This document shows positions 22,149 through 39,346 of a DNA stretch of 43,290 bases, one piece after another. The notes beneath the pieces are model-generated. The model saw only the letters and a program-made list of their open reading frames with translations, had not been told where the DNA came from and made no database searches. This DNA comes from Gemmatimonadaceae bacterium. GTDB lineage: Bacteria; Gemmatimonadota; Gemmatimonadetes; Gemmatimonadales; Gemmatimonadaceae. The position numbers were made by a program, and so were the translations under genes. How positions within the stretch are numbered: position 1 is the stretch's first letter; each line of letters starts with the position of its first letter. The DNA is taken from positions 1-43,290 of the forward strand of contig JANWLO010000045.1 in NCBI GenBank assembly GCA_025450815.1. The letters are read 5' to 3'.

Positions 22149-22163
22149 TCGAGGAGACCTAAG

Positions 22164-23552
22164 GTGAATACTGCCAAGAGGTTTGCACTCCTCGGCGTAC
22201 TGGCAATGGCCGGAACGATAGGAGCGTGCAACAATTTTCTGACCGGTGGCGAGCTAAGCACCGATCCTAACCGTCCAACCTCCGGAACGCCGCAGTCGCG
22301 TTTCGAAGCGACTCAGCCGTCGCTCTGGGCTCTACTCTCGAGCGATTTGGCTCGTGTGACGAGCGTGTGGATGCAGCAGCTGGAAGGGATCAACTTCCAG
22401 TACACGTCGGTGAACATTTACGTGCACGACGAATCCACAACCGGTGGACTACAAGCCGGATTGTATACTGGTGGCGGTCTCGTGGATCTTCGCGAGGTCG
22501 AGAGCGAGTCAGTCGCGTCAGGCGATTCATTGCTGCTTGGTCAAGCGCAGATCGTGGAAGCATTCATGATCGGCACTGGTGCGGACCTGTTCGGTGACCT
22601 GGTCTACTCACAGGCGCTCACGAACACTCCAAATCCGACGCTGGACAATCAGCTCGACGTCTACGATGCCGTGCAAACCTTGCTCACCACGGGTATCGGC
22701 AACCTCACCGCAACAGGACCCACGAATTTCGGTGCGGGTACGTCAGACCTGGTGTACGGCAACAGCAGGGCAAAGTGGACGGCGCTCGCACACACGCTAA
22801 AGGCGCGCTTCTTCCTGCACACGGCAGAAGTGCGGCCGGCCGCATATGCGCAAGCGTTGGCCGAGGCGCAGCTTGGAATCACCTCAACCACGGGTGATTA
22901 CAAGGCAATCTGGTCGGGATCGCTTGCCGAGCAGAACTTCTGGTTTCAGTTCTTCGTCAATCAGAGGGCCGGTTACATTGTGCCTGGACCGTTTTTCGTG
23001 AATCTGCTCAAGACGAACAGTGATCCACGGCTGACGGAGTACTTTGCGGTTGACGGCGCCAACAACGCGGTTGATTTGAGTGCAACACGACTCGACCCAA
23101 CGTTCTCACAGCCTCTCGTAACAGCCCAGGAGAACTCGCTCATCTGGGCGGAATCAGCGTATCGCACTGGCTCGACTGGTCCGGCATTGTCCGAGCTGAA
23201 TATCGCCCGTGCCCAGGCGGACACAGTGTGCAGCGCGGAAACCGGTTCATCCTGCGGCATTGGGCCTGAAGCAGCCGCCGGCAGCGCACTTCTCAAAGCC
23301 ATTCTCACGGAGAAGTACATCGCCGAGTTCCAGAACATCGAAGCATGGAACGATTACAAGCGCACCTGCTTCCCGAATCTCACGCCGACGGTCGCGGGCC
23401 TGATTATTCCCGCCCGGTTCTTCTACGACACGTCGGAGCGTCAGACGGACACGAACATCCCGGTCCCGGGCGCTCAGCCCACCCGGAATGCAAACGATCC
23501 GGCGAATGCGTTCGACGATTTCGGCGTAGCCTGCAAGGGACAGACTCCATGA
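22164..23552 (+). CDS. SusD/RagB-type outer-membrane lipoprotein
   Basis: 462 residues from a GTG start 15 bp after susC, with GAGGAG upstream. A lipoprotein signal ends IGAC (Cys22). The body is helical and TPR-like, as in SusD: PNRPTSGTPQSRFEATQPSL, a central FGDLVYSQAL, the domain-typical AKWTALAHTLKARFFLHTAEV, and a C-terminal LTEKYIAEFQNIEAWNDYKR before the proline-rich end. SusD proteins bind the ligand at the cell surface and close over SusC. It is 462 residues, within the family's usual range. A strong terminator follows 70 nt later, so susC-susD is a two-gene operon. Confidence 0.93.
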   Translation: MNTAKRFALLGVLAMAGTIGACNNFLTGGELSTDPNRPTSGTPQSRFEATQPSLWALLSSDLARVTSVWMQQLEGINFQYTSVNIYVHDESTTGGLQAGLYTGGGLVDLREVESESVASGDSLLLGQAQIVEAFMIGTGADLFGDLVYSQALTNTPNPTLDNQLDVYDAVQTLLTTGIGNLTATGPTNFGAGTSDLVYGNSRAKWTALAHTLKARFFLHTAEVRPAAYAQALAEAQLGITSTTGDYKAIWSGSLAEQNFWFQFFVNQRAGYIVPGPFFVNLLKTNSDPRLTEYFAVDGANNAVDLSATRLDPTFSQPLVTAQENSLIWAESAYRTGSTGPALSELNIARAQADTVCSAETGSSCGIGPEAAAGSALLKAILTEKYIAEFQNIEAWNDYKRTCFPNLTPTVAGLIIPARFFYDTSERQTDTNIPVPGAQPTRNANDPANAFDDFGVACKGQTP

Positions 23553-23615
23553 TGATCGGTTAAGATGCAGCCAGGATCGCAGTCGGTCCTGGCGGCGTCT
23601 CCGAGCTTTGGCTGT

Positions 23616-23664
23616 AAAAAAGCGGCCCGGTATGCCTTCGCGGCGTACCGGGTCGTTTTCTTTA
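23616..23664 (+). terminator. Rho-independent terminator of the susCD operon
   Basis: A 14-bp stem (23623-23636 with 23642-23655, two G-U pairs) and a 5-nt loop TTCGC, then TTTTCTTT. An A-run (GTAAAAAAG) just before the stem means it could also work on the other strand. A shorter stem (GCCAGGA/TCCTGGC, 23570-23593) precedes it. Confidence 0.9.
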
Positions 23665-23687
23665 TTCCCTCTTCATCGCCACTGCTC

Positions 23688-23718
23688 TTGACGGCTCCGC
23701 GTCTCAGGGCGGTATATT
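23688..23718 (+). promoter_or_regulatory. Candidate promoter of the small lipoprotein gene
   Basis: TTGACG (23688-23693) and TATATT (23713-23718) with a 19-nt spacer, slightly long. It lies between the susCD terminator and the ATG at 23745, so the lipoprotein gene is probably a separate transcript with a short leader. Confidence 0.55.
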
Positions 23719-23744
23719 GTGCGTATCCATCGATCGAGGATTAC

Positions 23745-24185
23745 ATGCGCGTTCGGCTCTCGCTCTGTTCGGCCGCCATCATGCTGTGCGGATGCTATGC
23801 ATCCTTCCCGATCGACATCGCGCAGGCGAAACCGGGCACCAAGCTACGCGTCAGTCTAACCGACGCGGGATCCGACAGCCTGGCTCGATATCTCGGCCCC
23901 GGAGTCGAATCAGTCGACGGCAAGCTGCTCAGGAGCACGGACACCGATCTTTCTCTCGGCGTCTCTCAGATCTCGATGCGGTCGGGTATCGATCAGTTCT
24001 GGAAGGGGGAATCAGTCGTTCTTCCGAAGTATTCGGTGGCCACCGTTCTCGAGCGCCGGCTGTCCAAACCACGCACGTTCCTGCTCGCCGGCGCCATCAT
24101 CGCCGCGCTCGCGAGCGTCAAGCTTTCGGGAGTCGGAGGGAGCAACGGCGCACCCAACTCGCACGGCGGAGGCGGGCCCAAGTAA
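23745..24185 (+). CDS. Small lipoprotein with C-terminal membrane segment (uncharacterised)
   Basis: 146 residues from the ATG at 23745, with GAGGA 4 nt before it. The upstream open frame overlaps the terminator and is not coding. The N-terminus is a lipoprotein signal ending LCGC (Cys18). A beta-rich segment follows (GTKLRVSLTDAGSDSLARYL, LLRSTDTDLSLGVSQI). Near the end comes one hydrophobic span (FLLAGAIIAALASVKL) and a Gly/Asn-rich tail (SNGAPNSHGGGGPK). I do not recognise the family. It converges on the next gene with 22 bp between stops. Confidence 0.7.
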   Translation: MRVRLSLCSAAIMLCGCYASFPIDIAQAKPGTKLRVSLTDAGSDSLARYLGPGVESVDGKLLRSTDTDLSLGVSQISMRSGIDQFWKGESVVLPKYSVATVLERRLSKPRTFLLAGAIIAALASVKLSGVGGSNGAPNSHGGGGPK

Positions 24186-24888: not shown

Positions 24889-26130
24889 ATGCGCACGACG
24901 CGGTGGAAGATCGCACTCGTATCCAGCGCGCTGATCGGTGCGCACGCGAGCGCCCCCGCACTCGCGGCGCAGGACGCGACGCAGGATGCGCCGCCCCCCG
25001 CTGCCGCAGAGCAAATTCTCTATCCCGCCACACTCGACTACGGCACCGGGCTGATAGACATCCCCGTCGCCTGGGTCTCACCGACTTCCGGCGACGTCTG
25101 GATGCAGGCGTCCGGGAAAATCGTGTCGTACTGCGCAACGCCGTGCACCATCAACTTCGGCGACAAGCTCAACTCCAACTTCTCCATCGACACCCACTGG
25201 ATGCAACGCTTCTCCGTGGGTCTCTCCGTATACAGCCAGAACCCCGAGTGGGGATTCTTCGGTCAGGCGCTCGTGCTCAAGCAGCAGCCGAGCAAGGCGT
25301 GGCCGTCCATCGCGCTCGGCTTCCGCAATCTCGGCCCGTACAACCACGAAGAGCGTTTCCTCATCGGTCACGACATCTTCGTCTCGCCCTCCGGCGGAAT
25401 CAACGGCATCACACCGGGCTTCGCGCGCGACTTTCACACATCGCCCACCGTGTACGCCGTCGCTACGAAAGAGGCGACGTTCGGCAAGAGCTCCGCGAGC
25501 TTCAGCCTCGGTTACGGCAGCGGCATCTTCCACGATGACGGCGGACTGGGAAGCGCCTACAACGACAAGGGCACGATCGCAAAGGGCCTTTTCCTCGGCG
25601 CGCGCTACGCACTGCGCACGTCGGAGAACAGCAGCCTCACGATCCTCGCCGAGAACAACGGATTCGACTGGAACGCGGGCGTCGTCGGCAACTGGCGCGG
25701 ACTGTCGGCTGGCATCTACGGAACCGAGCTCGAGGAAGGCGGCAAGGATCCGAGCAAGGGCCCGCTCTACACGATTTACAACTACGCCAAGTTCAACGCT
25801 TCCATCGGCTACAGCGGCAACCTGCACGACATCGCGCACGGCACGATTCTCCGTGCGCGCATCGGTGAGCTCGAGCAGGAGCAGCTGCGGCTTCGCGCGC
25901 AGATCGCGCAGCGCGAGCACAAGATCGAGGATTTGCAGGTCGCTCTCTCGAAGGCGCAGGGCGGCGAGCTCGCCGAGGTTGCGAAGCGCCGCGAACAGCT
26001 CGACTCGCAAATTCAGGAAGAGCAGGAAGCGATCAAGCGCGCCGAAGAGCGGCTGAACGCGTTGCAGGGCGGAGCGCCACCACCACCAGCGCCCACGCCC
26101 CCGCCCAGCACCACCACGCCTCCGCGCTAA
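24889..26130 (+). CDS. Outer-membrane barrel with C-terminal coiled coil, paralogue 1
   Basis: 413 residues from the ATG at 24889, behind GGAGG. A signal peptide (KIALVSSALIGAHASAPALA) is followed by about 290 residues of barrel-like strands, including GLIDIPVAWVSPTSGDVWMQ, GLSVYSQNPEWGFFGQALVL and LGYGSGIFHDDGGLGSAYN. Residues about 320-390 form a long charged coiled coil (RIGELEQEQLRLRAQIAQRE), then a Pro/Thr tail (PPPPAPTPPPSTTTPPR). The next gene encodes a paralogue with the same three motifs and the same layout. A barrel followed by a coiled coil suggests a periplasmic arm that could touch the peptidoglycan or the TPR proteins encoded downstream. First gene of the ten-gene block; function unknown. 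Confidence 0.8.
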   Translation: MRTTRWKIALVSSALIGAHASAPALAAQDATQDAPPPAAAEQILYPATLDYGTGLIDIPVAWVSPTSGDVWMQASGKIVSYCATPCTINFGDKLNSNFSIDTHWMQRFSVGLSVYSQNPEWGFFGQALVLKQQPSKAWPSIALGFRNLGPYNHEERFLIGHDIFVSPSGGINGITPGFARDFHTSPTVYAVATKEATFGKSSASFSLGYGSGIFHDDGGLGSAYNDKGTIAKGLFLGARYALRTSENSSLTILAENNGFDWNAGVVGNWRGLSAGIYGTELEEGGKDPSKGPLYTIYNYAKFNASIGYSGNLHDIAHGTILRARIGELEQEQLRLRAQIAQREHKIEDLQVALSKAQGGELAEVAKRREQLDSQIQEEQEAIKRAEERLNALQGGAPPPPAPTPPPSTTTPPR

Positions 26131-26147
26131 CTCGACCCAGGTCAACG

Positions 26148-27362
26148 ATGATTTTCTCCGTCACCCGATCCGTGCGCATCGCGCTGCTGCTCGCCGTCTC
26201 GACGGCCGCCGGCATGATTCCCCGAGTCGCGAGCGCGCAAGAGACGTATCCGCAAACCATGTACTGGGGCGCCGGCCTGATCGACATTCCGGTGGCTTGG
26301 GTATCGCCGGTGACCGGCGACTTCTCGCTCAACTTCTCCGGCAAGACGTTCCACGGCGCGAAGGCATCGCCCGATCTCACGGTGCTCAATGGACTGAACA
26401 CCAACGGCGCGATCTCGTTCTCGTTTGCCGGGCGGCTCGAAGCCGGGCTCTCGATCTACTCTGATAATCCGGAGTGGGGAATCTTCGCGCAGGGGCTGCT
26501 CGTGAACGAGGAAAACTTTCGCCCGCGCTCTGGTGCGGTGCACTGGATTCCGAGCGTCGCGGTAGGGATGCGCAACATCGGTCCGTACGATCACATCGAT
26601 CGCTTCACCGCCGGCTACTCGCTCTTTCCAGGAACGGTGGCGAACCCGGGGAAGCAGCACATCGCGGATTCGCTGCACGCGAACTTCAAGACTGGTAACA
26701 CGGTGTACGGAGTAGCAACGAAGTCGTTCGCGCTCGAGGAGCTGAATCCCGGGTGGGGAAAGACGACGGTCAGCCTGTCGTTCGGCTACGGCAACGGTCT
26801 GTTCAAGAATGACGGCGGCCTCGGGAAGGCGTACGCCGCCAATTCGTGGGGCGGCGCGTTCGGAGGCGTGAAGGTGGATCTCTATCCGTCGGCGCACAGC
26901 ACGCTCTCGTTCATGGCCGAGAACAATGCGTGGGACTACGATGTTGGTGCCGCGTACGAGTGGCACGGACTGCGCGCCGGCGCGTACTGGACTGAGCTCG
27001 GCGCGTCGCGCGCCGACACGACGTCCTCCGCGTCGAAGCTGTACGGCTACAGCAAATTCGCGTTCACGCTCGGCTGGCAGAACAATGTCCTCGCGTTGCT
27101 GCGCGGACACGCACTGGACCGTCGCGTGGCGGAGCTCGAGCGCCAGCGCAAGCTGCTCACAGGCGAGATCACGGCGCGGCAGCAGCGCATATCGTCGCTG
27201 GAGCTCGAAATCAATCGGTACCCGGCGCAGAATCTGCTCGAGCTCGAGCAGCGACGCGCGCAGGCGGAACAGGAGCTACGCTCGGAGCGCGAGGCGCTCC
27301 AGCGACTGGAGGAGCGTCTGCACCGGCTGGAGCAGGACGCGCCGCCGAGCACCACTCCGTAA
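26148..27362 (+). CDS. Outer-membrane barrel with C-terminal coiled coil, paralogue 2
   Basis: 404 residues, 17 bp after paralogue 1. A signal peptide (SVRIALLLAVSTAAGMIPRV) precedes a barrel with the same landmarks: GLIDIPVAWVSPVTGDFSLN, GLSIYSDNPEWGIFAQGLLV and FGYGNGLFKNDGGLGKAYA. The C-terminal about 85 residues are a coiled coil (LDRRVAELERQRKLLTGEIT, then RRAQAEQELRSEREALQRLE) and the end is PPSTTP. A tandem duplication followed by divergence is likely. The pair may form a hetero-oligomer, as proposed for barrel pairs in myxobacterial Glt/Nfs complexes; that is inference. Confidence 0.8.
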   Translation: MIFSVTRSVRIALLLAVSTAAGMIPRVASAQETYPQTMYWGAGLIDIPVAWVSPVTGDFSLNFSGKTFHGAKASPDLTVLNGLNTNGAISFSFAGRLEAGLSIYSDNPEWGIFAQGLLVNEENFRPRSGAVHWIPSVAVGMRNIGPYDHIDRFTAGYSLFPGTVANPGKQHIADSLHANFKTGNTVYGVATKSFALEELNPGWGKTTVSLSFGYGNGLFKNDGGLGKAYAANSWGGAFGGVKVDLYPSAHSTLSFMAENNAWDYDVGAAYEWHGLRAGAYWTELGASRADTTSSASKLYGYSKFAFTLGWQNNVLALLRGHALDRRVAELERQRKLLTGEITARQQRISSLELEINRYPAQNLLELEQRRAQAEQELRSEREALQRLEERLHRLEQDAPPSTTP

Positions 27363-27385
27363 TTGCCCACGACCGAGACCATCTG

Positions 27386-28114
27386 ATGCGAGCACAGAGT
27401 CTTCGCTCCTCCCTGCTGGTGATGACGGTCGGGTTGCTGCTCCCGGCAGTCGCGATCGCACAACAGACCGATTCGATGCAGGCCGACAGCGCGGCGCAGC
27501 AGCAGGCGTACGAGAACCGGCGCGGCGCGCTCGTAAAGGAGCTGCAGAGCACGCAGGACAAGCTAAGCGATCTGCGCAGCCAGCGCGTGCGACTCGAGGC
27601 GCGCATCGAGAACGTGCTCGCCGAAACAATGCAGCGGCGCACGCAGCAGCTGCTCGTTAGCAAGGAGCAGACGGCGCTCCTGCAGCTGGACGGCGTGCTC
27701 GCCTCGGCGCAGGACAACATGGTGGCGCAGCGCGATCGCATGCGCTCGCTCGGCGACGCGGTGAGGCGACGTGCGGGCGCGGTGCTCGTCGTCACGCTGC
27801 GCGCCGACTCGGCGGCTCCGGGGTCGCTAGGTGATGCATCGCTTCAAATCGACAACATGGTCGCGGCCACGCGCACTTACTCGCAGGTCGCGGCGCAGGC
27901 GCTTCAGACCGGCGCGGTGGATCCGCTCTACCGCTCCGAGGTGCTGCCGAGCACGCACACGGTGGAGCTGCATCTAACGCTCGCCGGCCAGCAGGTGGTG
28001 CAGGGAATCAACGTGAACGCGGTTGCCGAAACGGTGACGTACGTCGAGTTCACGGTTCGCAATGGGCAGCTCGTCCCCACCACGTGGACGAGCCGCGGGA
28101 CAACGCCGTTCTGA
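27386..28114 (+). CDS. Periplasmic coiled-coil protein (uncharacterised)
   Basis: 242 residues, 23 bp after the second barrel gene. Signal peptide SLLVMTVGLLLPAVAIAQ. Residues 35-130 are a strongly charged helix with heptad character (RGALVKELQSTQDKLSDLRS, QRVRLEARIENVLAETMQRR). The C-terminal 100 residues look like a beta-rich domain (TVELHLTLAGQQVVQGINVN, VTYVEFTVRNGQLVPTTW). No family recognised. Position and spacing make it part of the ten-gene block, probably a periplasmic partner of the barrel coiled coils. Confidence 0.75.
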   Translation: MRAQSLRSSLLVMTVGLLLPAVAIAQQTDSMQADSAAQQQAYENRRGALVKELQSTQDKLSDLRSQRVRLEARIENVLAETMQRRTQQLLVSKEQTALLQLDGVLASAQDNMVAQRDRMRSLGDAVRRRAGAVLVVTLRADSAAPGSLGDASLQIDNMVAATRTYSQVAAQALQTGAVDPLYRSEVLPSTHTVELHLTLAGQQVVQGINVNAVAETVTYVEFTVRNGQLVPTTWTSRGTTPF

Positions 28115-28128
28115 TTCTTTCGAGATCG

Positions 28129-30321
28129 GTGCGCGCACTCGCGGTCCTTGCCGCGATGATTCTGGTGTCGCCAGTGCTGGCACAGCAGCCCGTCGCCGCG
28201 CCGCCCGCACCGGCGTCGCCCGCGTCGCAGGCGGTCGTGCAGCCATCGCCAGACCAGGCGCGCGGGATGGACGCCGAGCTTCGCATGGCGCTCTTCGACG
28301 TCACGATGGATCATCCACTGAGCGCGCTCGATCGCCTCGAGTGGTTGCGCTCATCCCCGCTCGCCGGCTCGGGCGCCGCGGTGCCGGGAATGCGCGCGCA
28401 GGAAGACCTGCTCTTTCTCCTCGCCGAGTCGTACTACCGCCTTGGCATGCGCGACGCGTTTCGCAAGACCGCGACTTCGCTCGACTCGGCGGCGCCCGAC
28501 GGACGCTACGCCGGTGTGATCGCAGCGCAGCGGAGGCTCGACGCGTACTCGCGCGGCGACTACTCGCGCGTGCGCACGCTCGCGTCCGCGAAGAGTACCG
28601 GCGACCGCGCGCTGATCTCGCTCGTCGCCGGCCTGGCGGCGGTGCAGGTCAGGGACTACAACGCCGCGCACAACGCGTTTCTGCAGGCATCCCTCGCCGG
28701 GGGGCAGTTCGCGCTCTATGCGCAGTACATGGACGCCTTGGCCACCGCCGCCGGCGACAGTACGAAGGGAGTCGTCGCGCTGAACGCGCTGCAGGCGCTG
28801 AGCGAGGCGTCCCGCGGCGCCTTCTCCGAGCAGGTGCGCTTGAGCGCCGCCCAGACCGCGCTCGGCATCGGCCAGTACGCGGCCGCCGCATCGCTCGCCG
28901 ACGGCGTTCCCGCAACGAGCGGCGCCGGCGCGCAGGCGCTCCTCACCAAGGCTTGGGCGCTGTACCGCGGCGGCAATGCGTCCGGCGCAGCAACGGCCTT
29001 CCGCGATTTCGCACGGCTCTATCCGCAGCTGCCGGAGCGCGATCAAGCGCGACTGATGGCGGGACAGATCATGCTGGAAGGCGGGAAAAGCGATTCAGCC
29101 GAGCAGTACTTTCAGGGCGTTGCGGACTCGATTGGCGGCGAGCTCGCAGCGCTCCAGACTCGCGCCACCACGGCGATGACGGACGCTAGCCGCGCACTGG
29201 TTGGTGCTCGCATCGCCGGCACGGTGTTCATCGCGAACGCGGGCGCGGGCAAGGTCATCTCGCTTGCCGACGATGCGGGCGCGGAGAAAGCGCGCATCGC
29301 CGCCGCCTTCGCCGGCACTCCGGATTCTTCGCAGATGACTTCAGCGCCGCAAATCCTGAACGAGAACGGCATCGTGCAGCGCGTCGATTCCGTTACCGGC
29401 GGCGGATTCCCCGTGCGCGTGGTGTTCTCGCCTCGCGTCGACTCGCCCACGCCGGGTGCGTACGCCGACCGCACGCAAGCCGTGCTCGCGACGGATATCC
29501 GGCTCGCGCTCGCGTCGTACCGGCTGCAGGAGGAGATCGATGCGCAGAAGACGAAGATCGCGGCGCTTGAAAATCTGCAGCTGCTCATCGTGCAGGGCGA
29601 CAGCGGATTGGCCGAGAACGCGCGCCAGATCGGGTCGACTCAGGACTCGCTCGAGAAGATGAAGGGCGTGCTCGAAGGGACGCGCGACAAGGTGCGCACG
29701 GCGCTTCGAGCGCAGATCACCGCCACTCGCCAGATCGCCGCCGAGAACATCCGGCTGCTCGACAGCACGAAGGCGTCGCTCGGCGCAAACGCCAAGGGCC
29801 CCGAGCTCGATGCGCTGACGTTGGAGCAGCAGACGGCATCGATCTACAGCGGGATCGCGGACATGATCGAGCGCGGGCTGGAGCAGGCGCTCGATCGCAA
29901 CCCCGCATTCGTGCTGCGCGATTCGCTCGTCGTGCGGCTCGCGCGGGCGCACGCGCTCCACGACACCACGGCGGCGGTGCTGAGCACTGACTCGTCGGTG
30001 GTGGCGACGGAGCTGGCGGTACAGCGCGGCAAGGAGTCGAACGCGGTGATCGCGATGCGCACGGAGGTCGCGACGGCGGGCACGCAGCGGGCGGCGGCTG
30101 AGGGCGCGCTGGTGACGCTGGTGGACGAAGAGCTTCGCGCGCGCGCGACGGGGCTCATTGCGCAGCTGAGCCACGATCGCGAGGCGGCGGACTACGCGAG
30201 TGCGAGCGCTGCGTTCTTCAAGGCGATGGATGCGACAGCGACTGCACCCGGCGGTGCCAGCACCGCGGGAGCGGGCGCGGGCACTCCGTCCGGCGGCACC
30301 TCAACGCCTCCCGAACGATGA
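28129..30321 (+). CDS. Large periplasmic helical-repeat/coiled-coil protein
   Basis: 730 residues from a GTG at 28129. A GTG at 28084 would add 15 residues but overlap the previous gene by 31 nt and place acidic residues before the signal peptide (RALAVLAAMILVSPVLAQ). Residues about 55-330 are helical pairs like TPR units (LFLLAESYYRLGMRDAFRKT, ALISLVAGLAAVQVRDYNAA, AWALYRGGNASGAATAFRDF). The C-terminal half is long charged helices (YRLQEEIDAQKTKIAALENL) and ends in a Gly/Ser/Pro tail. It is probably a periplasmic scaffold. The stop overlaps the next start by 4 nt. Confidence 0.75.
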   Translation: MRALAVLAAMILVSPVLAQQPVAAPPAPASPASQAVVQPSPDQARGMDAELRMALFDVTMDHPLSALDRLEWLRSSPLAGSGAAVPGMRAQEDLLFLLAESYYRLGMRDAFRKTATSLDSAAPDGRYAGVIAAQRRLDAYSRGDYSRVRTLASAKSTGDRALISLVAGLAAVQVRDYNAAHNAFLQASLAGGQFALYAQYMDALATAAGDSTKGVVALNALQALSEASRGAFSEQVRLSAAQTALGIGQYAAAASLADGVPATSGAGAQALLTKAWALYRGGNASGAATAFRDFARLYPQLPERDQARLMAGQIMLEGGKSDSAEQYFQGVADSIGGELAALQTRATTAMTDASRALVGARIAGTVFIANAGAGKVISLADDAGAEKARIAAAFAGTPDSSQMTSAPQILNENGIVQRVDSVTGGGFPVRVVFSPRVDSPTPGAYADRTQAVLATDIRLALASYRLQEEIDAQKTKIAALENLQLLIVQGDSGLAENARQIGSTQDSLEKMKGVLEGTRDKVRTALRAQITATRQIAAENIRLLDSTKASLGANAKGPELDALTLEQQTASIYSGIADMIERGLEQALDRNPAFVLRDSLVVRLARAHALHDTTAAVLSTDSSVVATELAVQRGKESNAVIAMRTEVATAGTQRAAAEGALVTLVDEELRARATGLIAQLSHDREAADYASASAAFFKAMDATATAPGGASTAGAGAGTPSGGTSTPPER

Positions 30322-33320
30322 TGATGCGTTCGGGCCATCGTGCCCTCTTCGCGCTCATCTCGCTGTCGCTCGGCGTTGCCGCCGCGCCTGCGCAGGCGCC
30401 CCCTGCCCAGGCGCCGACGCAGCTCCTGGCATCGGCACGGCCTGCGAACGCCGACGCGCGCGACGACGCGATCGAGAAGCTCACCACCTTCCTCACGCGC
30501 TATCCGCAAAGCACGCTGCGGCCGGGCGCGCTCTTCCAGCTTGGCGAGCTGCTCGTGCGCCGCGCGGACGAGAACTTCGCCTCCGCGCAGCGCGCTGGCG
30601 GCGAGGTGCCCGACCGCCCGGACTACGCGCCCGCGATCACGCGCTACGAGGAGCTCATCCAGAAATTCCCGGCGTATCCGCGCGTCGACGCTGCGGCCTA
30701 CACGCTTGGCACGCTCTACTTCGCGGATCAGCGCAACGCCGATGCGGCGAAGATGTTCGACCTCGTGACTTCCAAGGAACAGTCGCACTTCCGCCCTGAG
30801 GGATACTTCCGGCTGGGCGATGCCGACTTCGAGCTCGCGGCGAAACTGCGCGGTGAACCGCGCAAGGCTATGTTCGAGCGCGCGGCCACGGCTTACGAGA
30901 GCGCAACGAAGATCGCACCGCCCAACGGCGACATCTATTTCCTCTCGCTCTACAAGCTCGGCTGGTCGTACTACAATCAGGCGACGCAGGCCAATCAGCC
31001 GGAATACCAGCAGGCGGTCGAGGTGTTCGGGCGTCTGGTGGCCGAGTACGACAAGCTCTCGGCGGAACAGCAGGCGCGGCTCGGGCTGCGCGGCGAAGCG
31101 ATCGAGTACATGGCGGTCGCGCTCACGCAAACCGGCGGCGCCGATGCGGCGCGTCGGTACTTCGGCACACATGCCGCGTCGGAGTTCAAGCTCCCGGTGC
31201 TGCGCCGCGTGGCCTCCGGACTCCGTGACCAGGGCGACTTCGTGCGCGCCGTGGATGCGTATCGCGCGGTGCTCGCGGACGCGCCCGCGGACTCGGGCGC
31301 GCTGGCGGCGCAGCGCGAGATCGTGGACATCTATCAGAATCGAGTGCTCGAGCCGGACAAGGCGCAGCAGGCGCGACTCGAGTTGGTGGACCGCTTCGCA
31401 CCGAACTCGGTGTGGTGGAATGCGAACGAGCCGCTGCGCGACAGCGCGCTCAAGACGCGCGAGTCCGCTCTGCGGCAGAGCGGCCAATACAGTCTGTCGC
31501 GCGCGCAGGACAAAAAGGACCGGGTGAAGTTCGCCGAGGCGGCCGATCTCTACGGTCGATACATGGGCGAGTTCTCGAAGAGTGACAGTGCGCAGGCGGT
31601 GGATCTGTTGTACGGCGAGGCGTTGTTCGCGGAGGGTGACTACTTCAAGGCTGGCACCGAGTACTCGCGCGCCGCGTACGCGTACACCAACGATCCAAAG
31701 CTCTCCGCGCAGGCGGGGCAGGACGCAATCGTCGCGTTCGACTCCGCCACGGTGCGCGGCAAGGGCGATCGCGCGGCGCAGGACTCCATGTTCGCCGTGG
31801 TCGACAAGTACGTGGCCGCGTTCCCCGCAACCGATGTCGCGCACCACGCGCTCATCGAGAAGGGGAAGCGCGCGTCGGAGGCTCAGCGGTGGGACGTGAT
31901 GGCGGCGACGTTCAAGACGTACGCCGACAACTATCCCGCCGACGCCTACACGCCCACGGCCCAGAAGCTGATTGGCGACGCGCTCTACAAGCAGGGGCTC
32001 TACACCGAGGCGCAGGGACAGTGGGAGAATGCCCAAGCGGTGGCGACGAAGGCAGGGAAGCGCGCGCTGGCGGATTCGATCACGCTCGTCCGCAACGCCG
32101 CGGCCGTGACGTACGGTGATTCGCTCGTGAAGGCGGGGAACTATCGCGAGGCAGCGGAAGCCGTGTACGTCGCGTTCGCGGACAGGAATCCGACGTCGGA
32201 CCGCGCGCCGGACGCCCTCCGCAACGCCATCGAGACGTACGTACTCGCTGACAGCGTCGCGCGGGCGAAGGGCGATGGCAGTGCGTCGAGCGCCGCGAAG
32301 CAGCGCGCGCTCGAGCTGTCGCAGCGTCTCGTCACGCAGTACCCCACGTACAAGTATCGCGTGCAATACCAGGCGCTTCAGACGCAGCTGCTCGCGGATC
32401 TCGGAAAGCGCGACGAGGCGGCGGGTGCTCTCGAGACGCTGATCAAGGAAAATCCGACGTGGCCCGGCCGCGCGGACGCGATGGTTCGTCTCGCGGTGGA
32501 CTACGATTCGCTCGCGAAGCCGAAGGATGAAGCAGCAGCGTACGAGCGGTTCGCGATCGCGTATCCGAAGGATGCTCGCGCCGTGGACGCGCAATACAAC
32601 GCCGCCGTCGCATATCTTCAGGGTGCGGACACGGCAAGCGCGATCCGCGCGTACGGCACCTTTGCAACGCGCTATCCGCGCGACCAGCGAGTGGGTGGTG
32701 CGCAGGCGACACGGGTGGCGCTCATCAAGGCGGGCGGTAACGTTGCGGCTGCCAACGTCGAGCTCGCGCGACTCTGCGTGCGTCCCTCGGCCGAGCTGCG
32801 CACGGAGTGCGCGGCGCGCATGGGTGAGAGCGAGTTCGCGCAAGGGCGCGCGCTCTTCCCGCGCTACCAGGCGCTCAAGCTCTCAATTCCGCTTCGCGTG
32901 AATCTGACGCGCGCGGGCGTCGAGCGGCTCTCCGCGCCCAAGCGCAAGCTGCTCGCGGAAATGTCGGGGCACTTCACGAAGGCCATCGCGAGCGGCGATC
33001 CTTCGTGGCTGTCGGCCTCGTCGTATTACGTCGGTCTGGCGCAGTGGGAGTATGGGAATTACCTGGCGAATCTCAGCCTGCCCAAAGATCTCACCGACGA
33101 CCAGCGCGCCGCGGCGCAGGCGGGGTCGGCGCGCCAGGCAGAGCAGTACTACCAGGCGGCGAACAAATTGTGGCAGACGCTCGTGGACAAGGCGGCCGCG
33201 GACAAGTTCGACAATGCGTGGGTTCAGCGCGCGAAGGATGCCTTGGGCGGCAAGGTTGATGCTTCGCCGCCGGCGGCGTCTGCGGACAATGAGGCAGCTC
33301 CTTCGCGAGGCGCACAATGA
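30318..33320 (+). CDS. Large periplasmic TPR protein
   Basis: 1000 residues with an N-terminal signal (ALFALISLSLGVAAAPAQA). Many tetratricopeptide-like units run through the chain, e.g. LRPGALFQLGELLVRRADEN, AAAYTLGTLYFADQRNADAA, AVDLLYGEALFAEGDYFKAG, AVDAQYNAAVAYLQGADTAS; each pairs two helices with conserved small and aromatic residues. The architecture recalls the periplasmic TPR proteins of trans-envelope machines (AgmU/GltD of Myxococcus, YbgF/CpoB of Tol systems), which act as protein-binding scaffolds. It overlaps its neighbours by 4 nt on both sides (ATGA), so it is translationally coupled. A long open frame on the opposite strand is a shadow. Confidence 0.85.
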   Translation: MMMRSGHRALFALISLSLGVAAAPAQAPPAQAPTQLLASARPANADARDDAIEKLTTFLTRYPQSTLRPGALFQLGELLVRRADENFASAQRAGGEVPDRPDYAPAITRYEELIQKFPAYPRVDAAAYTLGTLYFADQRNADAAKMFDLVTSKEQSHFRPEGYFRLGDADFELAAKLRGEPRKAMFERAATAYESATKIAPPNGDIYFLSLYKLGWSYYNQATQANQPEYQQAVEVFGRLVAEYDKLSAEQQARLGLRGEAIEYMAVALTQTGGADAARRYFGTHAASEFKLPVLRRVASGLRDQGDFVRAVDAYRAVLADAPADSGALAAQREIVDIYQNRVLEPDKAQQARLELVDRFAPNSVWWNANEPLRDSALKTRESALRQSGQYSLSRAQDKKDRVKFAEAADLYGRYMGEFSKSDSAQAVDLLYGEALFAEGDYFKAGTEYSRAAYAYTNDPKLSAQAGQDAIVAFDSATVRGKGDRAAQDSMFAVVDKYVAAFPATDVAHHALIEKGKRASEAQRWDVMAATFKTYADNYPADAYTPTAQKLIGDALYKQGLYTEAQGQWENAQAVATKAGKRALADSITLVRNAAAVTYGDSLVKAGNYREAAEAVYVAFADRNPTSDRAPDALRNAIETYVLADSVARAKGDGSASSAAKQRALELSQRLVTQYPTYKYRVQYQALQTQLLADLGKRDEAAGALETLIKENPTWPGRADAMVRLAVDYDSLAKPKDEAAAYERFAIAYPKDARAVDAQYNAAVAYLQGADTASAIRAYGTFATRYPRDQRVGGAQATRVALIKAGGNVAAANVELARLCVRPSAELRTECAARMGESEFAQGRALFPRYQALKLSIPLRVNLTRAGVERLSAPKRKLLAEMSGHFTKAIASGDPSWLSASSYYVGLAQWEYGNYLANLSLPKDLTDDQRAAAQAGSARQAEQYYQAANKLWQTLVDKAAADKFDNAWVQRAKDALGGKVDASPPAASADNEAAPSRGAQ

Positions 33321-34075
33321 GGCGTTTCGTGAGGCTGGGATGCGGCGTCCTTGTGGGTGGCGCAGCGCTGCTTTCGCCGGCGAGGCTGCACGCGCAGCAA
33401 AAGGGACCTCCGCCCAAGCGCGGGCAGGCCATCGAGATTCGCGGGCAGGTGCCCACACCGCAGGTGGTGACGGTGCGTCCACGCGAAGTGCCGGCGTACG
33501 ATCGGCAGATTCTCTCGCCCGCATTCTACAATGGAACAGGGACGATGGCATCTGCGGGCGGAGTGCAACTCGTGCCGGAGAGTCAGGTGAGGGGCACGAC
33601 TGCGCTCGACACTCTGCCGGTGGGCATCGCGCGCGAGGGCGGAGCACCCGCATCCGCCGCGACCGGACTCGCTCCGCTGCAGGTGAAAGCGGATTCGACG
33701 CGCAATGCGCAGGCGGCGGCGGTTGCACGTGCCGGCGCGAGCGCGGCGGAGATCGAAGCGATGCGACGCGAGCTGGCGGTGAGACGCGCGCGACTCGATT
33801 CGCTGCGGCGCGCGCTGAACGAGAGCATGCAGACGCCGGTGGATCTCGGGAAGATGCCGGCGCCGGCGGTGAGACGAATGAGCGCTGCCGATTCAGCGGC
33901 GCGCGCGCAGGAGATCGAGTCGATCAGGCGCGAGCTCGAGTACCGGCGCCAGCGGCTGGATTCGCTGCAGCGCGTAGTGAGAGCGATGGGAAGGGCACGA
34001 AAACCGGCACCACCGAAGCGCACCACACCGGATACGACCGCCGCACGGCCGACGACACCGCGCGGCCGCGAGTGA
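33317..34075 (+). CDS. Periplasmic protein with duplicated coiled-coil segment
   Basis: 252 residues, overlapping the TPR gene by 4 nt. An N-terminal signal (RLGCGVLVGGAALLSPARLH) is followed by a proline-rich region (KRGQAIEIRGQVPTPQVVTV). Two similar helices follow: AAEIEAMRRELAVRRARLDS and, after a linker, AQEIESIRRELEYRRQRLDS, an obvious internal duplication of about 28 residues. The end is Lys/Pro/Thr-rich. It may be anchored or periplasmic and dimerise by the coils. It lies just before the ExbB-type gene (38 bp). No family recognised. Confidence 0.75.
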   Translation: MRRFVRLGCGVLVGGAALLSPARLHAQQKGPPPKRGQAIEIRGQVPTPQVVTVRPREVPAYDRQILSPAFYNGTGTMASAGGVQLVPESQVRGTTALDTLPVGIAREGGAPASAATGLAPLQVKADSTRNAQAAAVARAGASAAEIEAMRRELAVRRARLDSLRRALNESMQTPVDLGKMPAPAVRRMSAADSAARAQEIESIRRELEYRRQRLDSLQRVVRAMGRARKPAPPKRTTPDTTAARPTTPRGRE

Positions 34076-34113
34076 ACGATGTCAGCTAGACCTTTCGCCG
34101 AGGACACAGATCG

Positions 34114-34755
34114 ATGAGCAATATGATCGAGTATTTCCGCAGTGGCGGCCCAATCATGTGGCCCATTCTCCTCGTGGCGCTGATCGGTCTCGCCGTTTTC
34201 GTCGAGCGGTTCTACATGATCGTGATCCGCTCGAAGATCAACGGGCGCACGTTCATCGAACGCGTGATCCAGCTCGTGCGCGCAGGGCGCATCGAGGATG
34301 CGATAAAACTGTGCGGACAGTCGAACGCGGTGCTCCCGGACATGGGGCTCCTCATTCTGCGCAGCCGGAGTCGTGATGAGGCGGATCTGCAGAATGTCGC
34401 CGACGCGGCTGCACTCAGCGTGCTCCCGCGACTCACTCGACGACTTCACTACCTGCCGATGCTCGCGAACGTCGCGACCCTCATCGGACTGCTCGGTACG
34501 ATCTACGGCTTGCGCGCTGCGTTCTCCGCGGTTGGCGTGGCGGCGGCGGCCGAGCGGTCGGCGGCGCTGGCGTCCGGCATCGCGATCGCGCTGAACGCCA
34601 CTGGATTCGGATTGTTCACCGCGATCCCGCTGACGGTGGCGCACTCGTATCTCGTGAGCCAGGCGGAAGGCATCATCGAGCAGGTCGATGAGTTCCAGGT
34701 GCGCCTGATCAACGCGCTCATCGATCGTCCCGACGTCCGACTCGGCCACCGGTAA
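34114..34755 (+). CDS. MotA/TolQ/ExbB-family proton channel protein
   Basis: 213 residues. Three membrane spans are visible: residues about 11-33 (GPIMWPILLVALIGLAVFVE), about 111-136 (LHYLPMLANVATLIGLLGTI) and about 152-178 (SGIAIALNATGFGLFTAIPL). A cytoplasmic loop lies between the first and second spans, as in ExbB/TolQ/AglR. These proteins form a pentamer around the ExbD/TolR helices and use the proton gradient to move a periplasmic partner. The next two genes encode the ExbD-type partners, the first with no gap. One TolQ plus two TolR homologues is the AglRQS arrangement of Myxococcus. Confidence 0.93.
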   Translation: MSNMIEYFRSGGPIMWPILLVALIGLAVFVERFYMIVIRSKINGRTFIERVIQLVRAGRIEDAIKLCGQSNAVLPDMGLLILRSRSRDEADLQNVADAAALSVLPRLTRRLHYLPMLANVATLIGLLGTIYGLRAAFSAVGVAAAAERSAALASGIAIALNATGFGLFTAIPLTVAHSYLVSQAEGIIEQVDEFQVRLINALIDRPDVRLGHR

Positions 34756-35286
34756 ATGGCATCAGTCTTTCATCGGGCCAAACAGCGCCGCGCCGAACGG
34801 GCGCCGGTGCTGGCGAGCGGGAACATCAACCTCGTTCCGCTCGTGGACATTCTCACGTCCATCGTGTTCTTCAGCCTCCTGACGTATCAGGGGGCGACGA
34901 TGGCCGCGCTGACGTCCTTCGACCTGACGCTGCCGCCCGTGGTGGTGAACACGCCCGAGCAGCTTTCGAAGATCAAGTCCGAGAAGGACGTGCTCAATCT
35001 GTTGCTCGCAGTACGCGTGGATAACGACAAGCTCACGGTGGAGCACTCCGAGGAGGGAGGATTTCACCAGGTGATCGAGGGGTTGAATGCGCAGTCGCTG
35101 GACCAGCTGCAGGCACTCATGACGGGAATTCGCTCCAAGTATCCGCAGAATGCCGACGTCACCGTGATCCCGGCGGACGAAGTGAGCTACGCGAACATCG
35201 TTCATGTGCTCGAACGGCTGAAGCTCTCGCACTTCACCGGGATCTCGCTCACGACGAAGGCGCGCGGCGCCGCGACGGGAGCATAG
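34756..35286 (+). CDS. ExbD/TolR-family protein, first copy
   Basis: 176 residues starting directly after the ExbB-type stop. One membrane span (residues about 24-48) contains the conserved proton-carrying aspartate, Asp31, in NINLVPLVDILTSIVFF, as in ExbD, TolR and AglQ/AglS. The periplasmic part (residues 50-176) is a TolR-like alpha/beta domain (LLLAVRVDNDKLTVEHSEEG, NADVTVIPADEVSYANIVHV). The next gene, 1 nt further on, encodes a second ExbD-like protein. Confidence 0.93.
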   Translation: MASVFHRAKQRRAERAPVLASGNINLVPLVDILTSIVFFSLLTYQGATMAALTSFDLTLPPVVVNTPEQLSKIKSEKDVLNLLLAVRVDNDKLTVEHSEEGGFHQVIEGLNAQSLDQLQALMTGIRSKYPQNADVTVIPADEVSYANIVHVLERLKLSHFTGISLTTKARGAATGA

Positions 35287-35287
35287 G

Positions 35288-35851
35288 ATGAGTCGCGCCC
35301 GTGATGCGCGCAGTGCGCGCCGCGCAGCACAGTTCGCGAAGTTCAGGCTCACCGAGCTGAATCTGATTCCGCTCGTTGATACGTTCGTGTCGATCGTGTT
35401 CTTCGCGCTCACCACCGCCACCGTCGGCGAGCTCTCGCCAGTGGTACCAGGCGTCCGGCTTCCGACCACCAGCGTGGGCGCGGTTGCACTTTCGCAGCTC
35501 ACGCTCGGCATCGGAGCGCAGGTGACGCTGAGCGGCCATCCGCTCATGAGCACGGTGGATGCGGCGCGCGCGCGTGCCACCGATCCGCGGCAGCCGCTCG
35601 TCATTCCGCAGCTCTTCAGGGCGCTCAAGACTGCCGCCGATTCGATGCGGAGTGTGAAGCGCATTTCCGCGGACTCGTCGCTGGATACGCCGCTAGCGAT
35701 TCAGGGCGACAGCAGCATGCACTACGACCTGCTCGCACGCGTCATGCAAACGGCGCGGATGGCGGGATTCAAGAATCTCTCTCTGCAGGTGAATAGAACC
35801 GGATCTTCAACGACGGTCACGACGGCTCCCTCGGGCACAGGAGCGCCGTAA
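35288..35851 (+). CDS. ExbD/TolR-family protein, second copy
   Basis: 187 residues. A single N-terminal span carries Asp31 (ELNLIPLVDTFVSIVFF), at the same residue number as in the first copy. The periplasmic part differs (LTLGIGAQVTLSGHPLMSTV, PLAIQGDSSMHYDLLARVMQ), so the two are distinct partners and not a recent duplication. The stop overlaps the next start by 1 nt. Two different ExbD-type proteins with one ExbB-type protein is unusual for a plain TonB system and resembles AglR-AglQ-AglS. Confidence 0.93.
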   Translation: MSRARDARSARRAAQFAKFRLTELNLIPLVDTFVSIVFFALTTATVGELSPVVPGVRLPTTSVGAVALSQLTLGIGAQVTLSGHPLMSTVDAARARATDPRQPLVIPQLFRALKTAADSMRSVKRISADSSLDTPLAIQGDSSMHYDLLARVMQTARMAGFKNLSLQVNRTGSSTTVTTAPSGTGAP

Positions 35852-36819
35852 TGGCCGACGAGAACAGGCCGCGCCGTGCGCGGGCGATGGCGGACGATGC
35901 GTCCTTTACGCGACAGCTCCGCTACGAGTTCGCCGACGCCGAAGGGCGGGCGATTCTGTATTCGTATCTGCTCGCGGCGGCGCTCGGCATCATCTGGATT
36001 TTGCTCGTGATCTTTCTTCCTTCTCCCCCGAACTCGATCAATCTGCTCAAGGAAGAGGAGCCGGTGCAGATCGAGGTGAAGACGGAGGACGTGCCGATCC
36101 CGACGCCAGCGCCGGTGGCTGCCGTTGGCGGAAGCCCGAAGGTTGCCGCGCCAACGCCCAAGCCGGCAGGTGGAAAGGGTGGCAACTCCCCCAAGAACGA
36201 CACGCGCGCGATCAACGATGCGTTCGGCGGCGGGCCGGCGAACAACACGGGCGGCATGGTCGGCGACGTGTCGAACGCGTTGCGCGGCACCGAGGTCGCA
36301 ACGGGAAGCGGCGCTACGCCTGGTGCGCAGGGGAAGGCAGTGATCGGCTACGGCAACGGCGGACAGAGCTCGCGGACGCCAGGGCGTGGCGGACTGGGCT
36401 CGGGGCTCGGCACTGGCGGCACCGGCGGTTTGGGCGGCGTGGGCGGCGGTGGCGGTGTCGGCTTCGCGACGGTGAAGGTCGCCCCGCCAAGTGTGATCCA
36501 CGCGGAAAACGTCGGCGGCCCGGGGCGCAACGTGTCTGACCTGGGCGACTACGTGCGCGGGCGCAACTCGCAGCTCCAGTTCTGCTATTCGGAGTACGGG
36601 CTCAAGACGAATCCGTCGCTCGCGGGATCGGTGTCGGTGGCGGTTACGCTCACGAGTGCGGGCGCCGTGACCGGCGTCGACATCACGAAGCGTACCTGGT
36701 CGGGCCCGGGCGCCTCCGAATCGGAGTCGTGCATCAAGCAGCGCATCGCCGGGTGGAAGTTCCCGAGCTCCGACCAGGGAGGGGGGACGTACAGCTTCTC
36801 GTTCTCCTTCAGCAGGTGA
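35851..36819 (+). CDS. TonB-like single-span protein with AgmX/PglI-type C-terminal domain
   Basis: 322 residues. A cytoplasmic N-terminus of about 34 residues is followed by one span (AILYSYLLAAALGIIWILLV, residues 34-57). A Pro-rich stretch (VPIPTPAPVAA) and a long Gly/Asn-rich linker (GRGGLGSGLGTGGTGGLGGV) would cross the periplasm. The C-terminal domain (about 230-322) has Cys245 in QFCYSEYG and Cys294 in ESCIKQRI, with SLAGSVSVAVTLTSAGAVTG between, then WKFP: the AgmX/PglI (GltJ/GltG) C-terminal pattern rather than ordinary TonB_C. It is probably driven by the ExbB/ExbD proteins encoded upstream. Last gene of the ten-gene block. The same domain recurs on a lipoprotein at 38796-39287. Confidence 0.88.
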   Translation: MADENRPRRARAMADDASFTRQLRYEFADAEGRAILYSYLLAAALGIIWILLVIFLPSPPNSINLLKEEEPVQIEVKTEDVPIPTPAPVAAVGGSPKVAAPTPKPAGGKGGNSPKNDTRAINDAFGGGPANNTGGMVGDVSNALRGTEVATGSGATPGAQGKAVIGYGNGGQSSRTPGRGGLGSGLGTGGTGGLGGVGGGGGVGFATVKVAPPSVIHAENVGGPGRNVSDLGDYVRGRNSQLQFCYSEYGLKTNPSLAGSVSVAVTLTSAGAVTGVDITKRTWSGPGASESESCIKQRIAGWKFPSSDQGGGTYSFSFSFSR

Positions 36820-37224: not shown

Positions 37225-38076
37225 ATGAAGGGACGACAGCAAGCGACCGATAACCGGGAGAACGAGACGACGGTGTGGCATAAGGCGCTGCAGGCTATCG
37301 GGATCCTGATGCTGCTGCAACACGCGGTACAGCTCCCCGAACCGCGTGGATACGTCAACGATTTCGCGAACGTCATTCCGGCGGAGCAAACGCAGCGCAT
37401 CCAGTCGATCATCGACGATGTGCGTGCGAAGTCGGGTGGCGAGATCGTGGTAGTCACGCTCGCCGACATCGGCGATGAGGCTCCCTCGGACGTCGCGCTG
37501 CAGATCGGTCGCACGTGGAAGGTCGGAAAGCTGGGGAAGCCCGGTGATCCGACGCGCAACACGGGCGTCATCATCCTCGTGCAGCCAAAGGAAACGGCGT
37601 CGAGCGGGCGCGGTCAGTGCTACGTCGGAGTTGGGTATGGCGCCGAGGGGTTCATAACGGATGCGACGAGTGGGCAGATGTGCCGCGACGCTACGGACTC
37701 GTTCAAGGCGCGCGACTACGGCACAGGAATCGAGCAGCTCACGGCGCAGGTCGCGCAGCGCTTCGCGGGAGAATATCATTTCACGCTCGACAGCTCGCTC
37801 GTTGCGAGCGTGCCCGCGCCGACTCGGCAACAGGGCTCGCGACAGCTGCCGCCGTTCGCGTTCTTCATCATCCTGTTCGTCATCTACCTCGTCGTGACGT
37901 CGATCATGAGGAAAGGCGGCGGCGGCGGGTGTGGTGGATGCATTCCGATCTTCATCCCCACGGGACGAGGTGGAGGGTGGAGCGGTGGTGGAGGCGGATT
38001 CGGAGGCGGCGGAGGATTTGGCGGCTTCGGTGGTGGTGGCGGATTCGGTGGCGGTGGCGGCGGCTCCAGCTGGTGA
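37225..38076 (+). CDS. TPM-domain membrane protein (YgcG-like)
   Basis: 283 residues from the ATG at 37225. An N-terminal hydrophobic stretch (ALQAIGILMLLQHAV) may be a signal or anchor. Residues about 40-180 form a TPM domain (TLP18.3/Psb32/MOLO-1 fold): YVNDFANVIPAEQTQRIQSI, SGGEIVVVTLADIGDEAPSD, a family-typical GVIILVQPKE and VGYGAEGFITDATSG. A C-terminal span (PFAFFIILFVIYLVVTSIM) is followed by a very Gly-rich tail with CGGC (residues about 234-283). TPM proteins with a glycine-rich tail are often neighbours of LemA, as here (39347). The role is poorly known; a link to membrane stress or protein quality control has been suggested for some. Confidence 0.85.
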   Translation: MKGRQQATDNRENETTVWHKALQAIGILMLLQHAVQLPEPRGYVNDFANVIPAEQTQRIQSIIDDVRAKSGGEIVVVTLADIGDEAPSDVALQIGRTWKVGKLGKPGDPTRNTGVIILVQPKETASSGRGQCYVGVGYGAEGFITDATSGQMCRDATDSFKARDYGTGIEQLTAQVAQRFAGEYHFTLDSSLVASVPAPTRQQGSRQLPPFAFFIILFVIYLVVTSIMRKGGGGGCGGCIPIFIPTGRGGGWSGGGGGFGGGGGFGGFGGGGGFGGGGGGSSW

Positions 38077-38082
38077 GATGAC

Positions 38083-38799
38083 ATGGCGAAGATGACCCTG
38101 GACGAGCTGGTCTCGCAGTTAACGAAGGCCTTCGGCGATTCGCTCGAGGCGGTGGTGCTCTACGGCTCGGCAGCCGCGGGCGAGCACATTCCCAAGCGGT
38201 CGGACTACAACGTGCTCGTGATCGTGCGCGAGCTCGGGCTCGCGGAGCTGGAGCGCGAGGCGGCGATCGCGCGAGCGTGGGGCGAGGCGGGCAATCCGCC
38301 GCCGCTTACGCTCACGGCGGCTGAGTGGCGCGGGTCGAGCGACATATTTCCGATGGAATATTCGGACGTGCTAGAGCGGCATCGCGTGCTGTATGGAACG
38401 CCGCCGTTCGATGGTGTGTCGGTGCGGCCGCACGATCTGCGGCTGCAGCTCGAGCACGAGGCGATGGGGAAGCTGCTCGCGCTCAGGCAGGGCGTGCTCG
38501 CGGCGGGCGGCGATCGCAAGCGGCAGGTGGAGCTGCTCGGCGCGAGCCTGAGCACGTTCATGGTGATCTTTCGCGCGCTGTTGCGATACCATGGCGAGTC
38601 GCCGCCACTCGACTATGAGCGGCGGATCGACGCAGTGTCGAAGAAGACGGGAATGAACGGCGCGCCGTTCGCGCGCGTGGTTCGTCATCATCGCGGAAGC
38701 GAGCCGCTTCCGGAGCGCGAGGTGCAGGAGGTGCTGGCCGGCTATCTTGCCGGGGCACACGCGCTCGTCGACTACCTCGACCGATTGGAAACGAAATGA
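38083..38799 (+). CDS. Nucleotidyltransferase-fold protein with altered catalytic motif
   Basis: 238 residues, 6 bp after the TPM gene. The N-terminal half has the Pol-beta nucleotidyltransferase motif AVVLYGSAAAGEHIPKRSDY followed by NVLVIV. The GS is intact, but the usual DxD after it reads D-Y-N, so one metal ligand is replaced and activity may be lost or changed. The C-terminal half is helical (QVELLGASLSTFMVIFRALL, ending EVLAGYLAGAHALVDYLDRL), like a HEPN-type or substrate-binding helical bundle. The stop overlaps the next start by 4 nt, so it is coupled to the lipoprotein gene. The function is open; MNT/HEPN-like toxin systems are one possibility, without support here. Confidence 0.7.
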   Translation: MAKMTLDELVSQLTKAFGDSLEAVVLYGSAAAGEHIPKRSDYNVLVIVRELGLAELEREAAIARAWGEAGNPPPLTLTAAEWRGSSDIFPMEYSDVLERHRVLYGTPPFDGVSVRPHDLRLQLEHEAMGKLLALRQGVLAAGGDRKRQVELLGASLSTFMVIFRALLRYHGESPPLDYERRIDAVSKKTGMNGAPFARVVRHHRGSEPLPEREVQEVLAGYLAGAHALVDYLDRLETK

Positions 38800-39287: not shown

Positions 39288-39346
39288 GTTGTCGAGTAGT
39301 GAGCGGGGATCGTAAATTTTTCTTTATTCTGCTGCGGAGAAATTCG

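Follow-up and report, generated by a model that had tools for sequence, protein, structure and literature searches.

In Myxococcus xanthus the core of the Glt machine consists of AglRQS together with GltC, GltD, GltE and GltG (PMC3169522). The paralogous barrels GltB and GltA are encoded by adjacent genes and bind GltC, a tetratricopeptide repeat (TPR) protein; each of the two also stabilises the other (PMC4488436). The nfsA-H genes lie in one region, are homologous to gltA-H and have kept their synteny; the AglRQS motor is encoded in a separate cluster and also drives Nfs (PMC3858216, PMC3169522). Machines of the Agl-Glt/Nfs type are known from Myxococcota, Bdellovibrio, some Gammaproteobacteria, Geobacter and Fibrobacter, and the barrel-type and other Group A genes have been reported only in Myxococcales and Bdellovibrionales (PMC3169522). 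A literature search found no report joining Gemmatimonadota or Gemmatimonadetes with AglQ, or with ExbD plus gliding. Here, a block of ten genes (g1 to g10) and a further lipoprotein gene (g11) were analysed in a 43,290-nucleotide stretch of DNA from a Gemmatimonadaceae bacterium (assembly GCA_025450815.1, contig JANWLO010000045.1), which in its whole length is called the window. The source assembly has a size of 2.94 Mb and is 68.5% complete. Genomes (G), their contigs (C) and loci (L) carry the numbers used in this analysis.

The order of the block is barrel, barrel, g3, TPR protein, TPR protein, small coiled-coil protein, TolQ, TolR, TolR and linker, which in kinds and order of parts is nearly that of nfsA-G/gltBAC plus AglRQS. 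With a probability of about 0.6, g1 to g11 encode a third trans-envelope machine driven by protons, a dedicated one that stands apart from Tol-Pal and TonB and is of the Agl-Glt/Nfs general type; it would act on the paired barrels and, by way of these, on a surface structure. Homology, conservation and structure prediction point to it. The original prediction, made from the letters of the window, had proposed ten tightly packed genes on one strand as an Agl-Glt/Nfs-like machine, and all ten open reading frames were found in place on the plus strand (24889-36819), as was g11 farther downstream.

Components of the block

The putative motor is encoded by g7 (34114-34755), g8 (34756-35286) and g9 (35288-35851). 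All three products scored above the Pfam curated cut-offs, g7 with 80.3 bits to MotA_ExbB (PF01618; cut-off 22.9 bits), g8 and g9 with 40.2 and 48.8 bits, respectively, to ExbD (PF02472; cut-off 25.4 bits). Asp31 was invariant in the orthologues examined of g8 (23/23) and g9 (25/25), and the two proteins are about 28-30% identical. Profile matches and residue counts thus agree with the set of one ExbB/TolQ-type and two ExbD/TolR-type proteins, each with Asp31, that had been read from the sequence. In a tree with the housekeeping ExbB/TolQ-type copies, the 25 g7 sequences formed one clade (Shimodaira-Hasegawa-like approximate likelihood ratio test, 95) on a very long branch. The proton-path threonines Thr129 and Thr163 were invariant in 25/25 g7 sequences, Asn161 was likewise invariant, and a Thr replaced the proline of the second transmembrane segment (TM2). 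At the position of the TM3 glutamate, Ile or Val stood in all 25, against Glu in 33 of 34 housekeeping TolQ/ExbB copies. No match to g7 was obtained among plasmids. The Zorya anti-phage system was considered and rejected, g7 giving only 14.2 bits with the ZorA model, and g8 and g9 no match.

The linker g10 (35851-36819) has one transmembrane segment (residues 38-56), a Pro/Gly-rich low-complexity arm and a C-terminal tail of the AgmX/PglI (GltG/GltJ) type. The tail scored 56.7 bits with NF033768, above the NCBIfam cut-off of 40 bits, and the AgmX/PglI-type end claimed for this TonB-like protein was therefore upheld. The complete GltG equivalog model was not matched (34.5 bits; cut-off 650 bits) and GltJ gave 25.3 bits, with only the C-terminal parts of both models aligned. 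Two tail cysteines are conserved, C245 in 28/28 and C294 in 27/28 sequences. The GltG/NfsG linker has a cytosolic FHA domain, a transmembrane segment, a periplasmic arm and a TonB-like AgmX/PglI tail. For g10, profile searches of Pfam and NCBIfam gave no FHA, GYF or other Pfam domain outside the tail, and in the Pfam search no TonB_C (PF03544) match was found for g10, while a confirmed TonB of the same genus does match.

A tail of the same type is carried by g11 (38796-39287), a probable outer-membrane lipoprotein of 163 amino acids, which scored 27.0 bits with NF033768 (cut-off 40 bits). The lipobox Cys16 and the tail residues Cys85 and Cys133 were invariant in 25/25 sequences. The gene lies downstream of g10, after TPM-domain and uncharacterised genes in the clade of the window and directly after g10 in others. 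Block-carrying genomes also encode lone exported proteins that have an AgmX/PglI tail and a Pro-rich stretch but differ in the N-terminal region (L079:9872-11002; also L082, L083, L085, L087 and L096). Tails above the cut-off were observed in carriers only. A second machine cluster around these extra proteins was rejected, since neither ExbB nor ExbD is encoded beside them.

The first two genes, g1 (24889-26130) and g2 (26148-27362), encode paralogues with 39% identity, and the orthologues of g1, which align with the g2 family, always stand in tandem with g2. The AlphaFold2 model of g2 (mean predicted local distance difference test score 79.8) is a barrel of about 12 strands followed by a C-terminal helical hairpin of about 84 residues (314-397), and g1 is predicted to share this build; the paired outer-membrane barrels with helical arms of the original prediction are thereby supported. 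In Foldseek searches of the PDB the nearest structures to g2 were barrels of the KdgM, NanC, VhGalP and FapF type, with modest scores (TM-score on the query about 0.3). The adjacent paralogous barrels GltB/GltA and NfsA/NfsB are annotated as OmpA-like; the block barrels gave no match to the Pfam OmpA_membrane family, and a PDB profile search with them returned coiled coils only. A homologue of g1/g2 in another family of the class (L044:7422-9107) carries a C-terminal OmpA peptidoglycan-binding domain and lies beside a second barrel paralogue. Because of this domain in a distant homologue, the C-terminal part of the block barrels may, by analogy, grip something in the periplasm. The homologues in that other family were rejected as parts of the same machine, none of g3 to g10 being near them and the neighbours checked being unrelated.

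Between barrels and motor lie four genes for exported proteins. For g3 (27386-28114) AlphaFold2 predicted a 99-residue helix (31-129) followed by a transthyretin-like beta-sandwich; the top Foldseek E-value, 0.0013, indicates the fold class only. The helical-repeat protein g4 (28084-30321) and the 1000-residue g5 (30318-33320) are TPR proteins by profile, g4 with 30.5 bits to TPR_6 and g5 with seven YbgF-type TPR stretches (124.3 bits). In four relatives (G026, G108, G065 and G092) a single reading frame joins g4 and g5, which suggests that they act as one body. The coiled-coil protein g6 (33317-34075) is poorly conserved and ranges from 119 to 252 amino acids in relatives. Searches of Pfam, NCBIfam and PDB profiles gave no family match beyond coiled-coil noise for g1, g2, g3 and g6. 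The genes are separated by 17 nt (g1/g2), 23 nt (g2/g3), 38 nt (g6/g7), 0 nt (g7/g8) and 1 nt (g8/g9), and overlap by 4 nt (g4/g5 and g5/g6) or 1 nt (g9/g10). The start of g4 is either GTG 28084, overlapping g3 by 31 nt, or GTG 28129, giving 730 residues. The eleventh gene, the g4-g5 fusions and the length variation of g6 go beyond what the original prediction described.

Conservation and the eleven-gene unit

Block-bearing records were sought by a contig scan with two exact peptides, a procedure that does not establish absence from other phyla. The named records recovered are labelled Gemmatimonadaceae, Gemmatimonadetes or Gemmatimonas, and every one is metagenome-assembled; they overlap with the numbered genomes, so that counts from the two sets are not additive. 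Gene order was kept in 26/26 named Gemmatimonadaceae records from nine genera, as far as each contig reaches, although the barrels are down to about 37% identical across these genera. The ten genes are therefore conserved together in relatives, as had been expected. Conservation across the whole of Gemmatimonadota did not hold: the block is patchy and was found within one family, Gemmatimonadaceae, in which the carriers are some soil and freshwater members.

Three markers identified the same genomes. Of 298 genomes of the phylum, 16 had the block-specific g3, and these 16 belong to one family; one additional weak match contained a stop codon. The tail domain exceeded its cut-off in 15 of the same 298, namely the g3 set minus G229, where the block is split over small contigs. 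Barrel g2 was searched in 200 genomes of the phylum, and all nine matching members of the family have the g1-g2 tandem; weaker g2 matches occurred in other families of the class.

The limits of the unit were visible within one genus (genus g11, a label unrelated to that of the gene), in which the block is present in G065, G115 and G202 and none of its markers occurs in G031, G175, G223 or G124. Both flanks lie on one contig in G223, which has no block. DNA similarity between G065 and G223 breaks off some 450 bp ahead of g1 and returns 3 bp beyond g11, the lipoprotein gene, with no remnant of the block between. The differing DNA thus spans g1 to g11, which makes the cassette a unit of eleven genes that occur together or not at all. 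As read from their topology, the trees of g7 and of the housekeeping ExbB group the same genomes, a pattern that seems to suit mostly vertical inheritance of the block, with losses.

Directly upstream of the block in the window (18837-24185) are genes for a SusC-like TonB-dependent receptor, a SusD-like lipoprotein and a 206-residue protein, and all or some of these three genes stand ahead of the block in L095, L103 and L110 as well. On its other side (37225-39973) are genes for a TPM-domain protein, an uncharacterised protein and LemA; these accompany the block in several genera (L091, L093, L095, L102-L106) and not in others. A promoter and terminator scan of the block gave a signal near chance level. 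Elsewhere in the window five clustered genes for tRNAs (Pro, Arg, Val, Gly, Ala) lie on the minus strand at 956-1582.

Mode of action and competing explanations

The block is not Tol-Pal or TonB, because the same genomes carry both systems separately. In the genome of the window TolQ-TolR-TolA-TolB-Pal-CpoB is encoded at G000:C146, and likewise in a sister genome at G033:C103. The TonB locus of the sister genome (G033:C53; L157:3822-8170) reads TonB, TonB, ExbB, ExbD, ExbD and a further possible TonB-like gene, with TonB_C confirmed for one. A duplicate of either system was accordingly rejected as an identity for the block. It had been reasoned that a second complete Tol-Pal locus of block-like architecture would speak against a dedicated machine; the other locus proved to be an ordinary TolQRAB-Pal-CpoB set with one TolR. 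Each of 30 genomes examined has at least two MotA_ExbB genes, a few carriers being incomplete assemblies, and in block carriers g7 is an additional, lower-scoring one. One argument of the original prediction was lost here: with one ExbB and two ExbDs encoded in the plain TonB locus of the genus as well, a pair of ExbDs is not diagnostic of an Agl-like motor.

In the mechanism proposed, g7 would form a pentameric channel around an inner pair of g8 and g9, possibly a heterodimer, whose Asp31 residues would carry protons. Family membership and the residues are consistent with these roles, and the 5:2 assembly is presumed from them. The motor would move g10. Through its flexible periplasmic arm, which terminates in the tail domain, g10 would pass force to the g4-g5 TPR scaffold and to g3. 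At the outer membrane these in turn would contact the helical hairpins of g1 and g2 as well as the lipoprotein g11 with its tail. The most likely output would be a surface polymer or adhesin moved or anchored along or against the outer membrane, as in Glt and Nfs.

Several points weigh against this reading. All carriers found are metagenome-assembled genomes, known from sequence alone. No kinship in sequence of g1 to g6 to Glt or Nfs proteins emerged, the PDB profile search giving only coiled coils. Counterparts of AglZ, GltI or GltK were not seen within the block. As g7 lacks the TM3 glutamate of TolQ/ExbB, its proton coupling may differ from theirs. MglA, which scored 279 bits with its M. 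xanthus counterpart, provides no link to gliding: carriers and non-carriers alike have it, 30/30 of the family genomes tested, and so it neither supports nor excludes gliding. It was discarded as a co-occurring marker of gliding because it is universal in the family and hence uninformative. The genome of the window has two MglA paralogues (G000:C79:4281-4952 and G000:C8:2367-2846), and both kinds are widespread in Gemmatimonadaceae.

A more far-reaching view, less likely than not, is that the block encodes a trans-envelope rotary machine of a class of its own, which did not descend from Agl-Glt/Nfs and shares only the motor and the tail module with known machines. Its distinguishing features would be a two-ExbD motor with a pentamer that lacks the TM3 glutamate, g10 and the lipoprotein with their common tail domain meeting across the periplasm, and a new barrel family with helical-hairpin arms.

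Energised import or export of the TonB kind, in which g7 to g10 would pull on g1/g2 or on the upstream SusC/SusD proteins and so carry a polymer or oligosaccharide across that membrane, the outer one, is unlikely. It draws on the SusC-like receptor, SusD-like lipoprotein and third gene directly upstream, at least partly present in three further loci, and on the closest solved barrels, which are 12-strand oligosaccharide porins of the KdgM/NanC/VhGalP kind. Yet the SusC/SusD genes do not lie beside the block in other genera and fall outside the presence/absence segment, the barrel match is weak and general, g10 lacks the TonB_C domain that the genuine TonB of the genus possesses, and two giant TPR proteins are foreign to Ton systems.

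Less probable again is an auxiliary envelope-integrity system, with Tol-Pal-like tethering or constriction of the outer membrane and the barrels as OmpA-like anchors. The YbgF/CpoB-type TPRs, a motor driven by proton motive force and the OmpA peptidoglycan-binding domain of the L044 barrel homologue would suit such a role, but a full Tol-Pal set is also present, the block contains no TolB, Pal or OmpA domain, and close relatives live without it. Gliding by the block is possible; that it is a genuine orthologue of the Agl-Glt gliding machine under the direction of MglA is nevertheless improbable, for although the part list and order, the GltG/GltJ-type tail and an MglA in the same genomes would fit, that MglA occurs regardless of the block, g10 has no cytosolic FHA or GYF/zinc domain for connection to MglA/AglZ, and no GltF, GltI or GltK is encoded in the block.

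Under the preferred reading of a dedicated third machine, the Gemmatimonadaceae cassette combines motor, scaffold, linker, paired barrels and lipoprotein in one all-or-none eleven-gene unit, a minimal system for dissecting how a proton motor transmits force to the outer membrane. It could also help to decide whether AglQ/AglS-like pairs are heterodimers, which is listed as unknown in PMC9389320.

Comparison with known machines

Tol-Pal shares with the block a TolQ/TolR-type motor and YbgF/CpoB-type TPRs; the block differs in lacking TolB and Pal and in having two ExbDs and barrels. The local ExbB-ExbD-TonB locus resembles it in having one ExbB and two ExbDs. In contrast, g7 belongs to a separate clade without the TM3 Glu, the tail of g10 is AgmX/PglI rather than TonB_C, and TPR and barrel proteins belong to the unit. 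The standalone Agl-Glt core of Gammaproteobacteria, Geobacter and Fibrobacter has motor, TPR proteins and linker in one locus, as does the block (PMC3169522), whereas paired barrels are not part of that core as described, a comparison made by description only.

Of the Agl-Glt/Nfs-like machine in the original prediction, the conserved unit, the kinds and order of parts and the GltG/GltJ/AgmX-type tail stood; the two-TolR argument did not, and neither a full GltG match nor an OmpA_membrane match was obtained. Because sequence kinship to Glt/Nfs was shown for the motor families and the linker tail only, the likeness otherwise being one of parts and order, the block is not filed as a member, though by analogy it would work like one. 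It differs from Nfs and AglRQS in that the cassette itself houses the motor genes, placed after the TPR genes and before the linker, and from Nfs and Glt in that g10 has no FHA domain and that g3 and the tail lipoprotein are extra. The block barrels have about 400 amino acids, with 12 strands and a hairpin, compared with 256-275 amino acids for GltA/GltB. Nfs together with AglRQS is nonetheless the described system with the same succession of parts: two barrels first, large TPR proteins, a small protein and a TonB-like linker, with one TolQ-like and two TolR-like proteins (PMC3858216, PMC3169522, PMC4488436).

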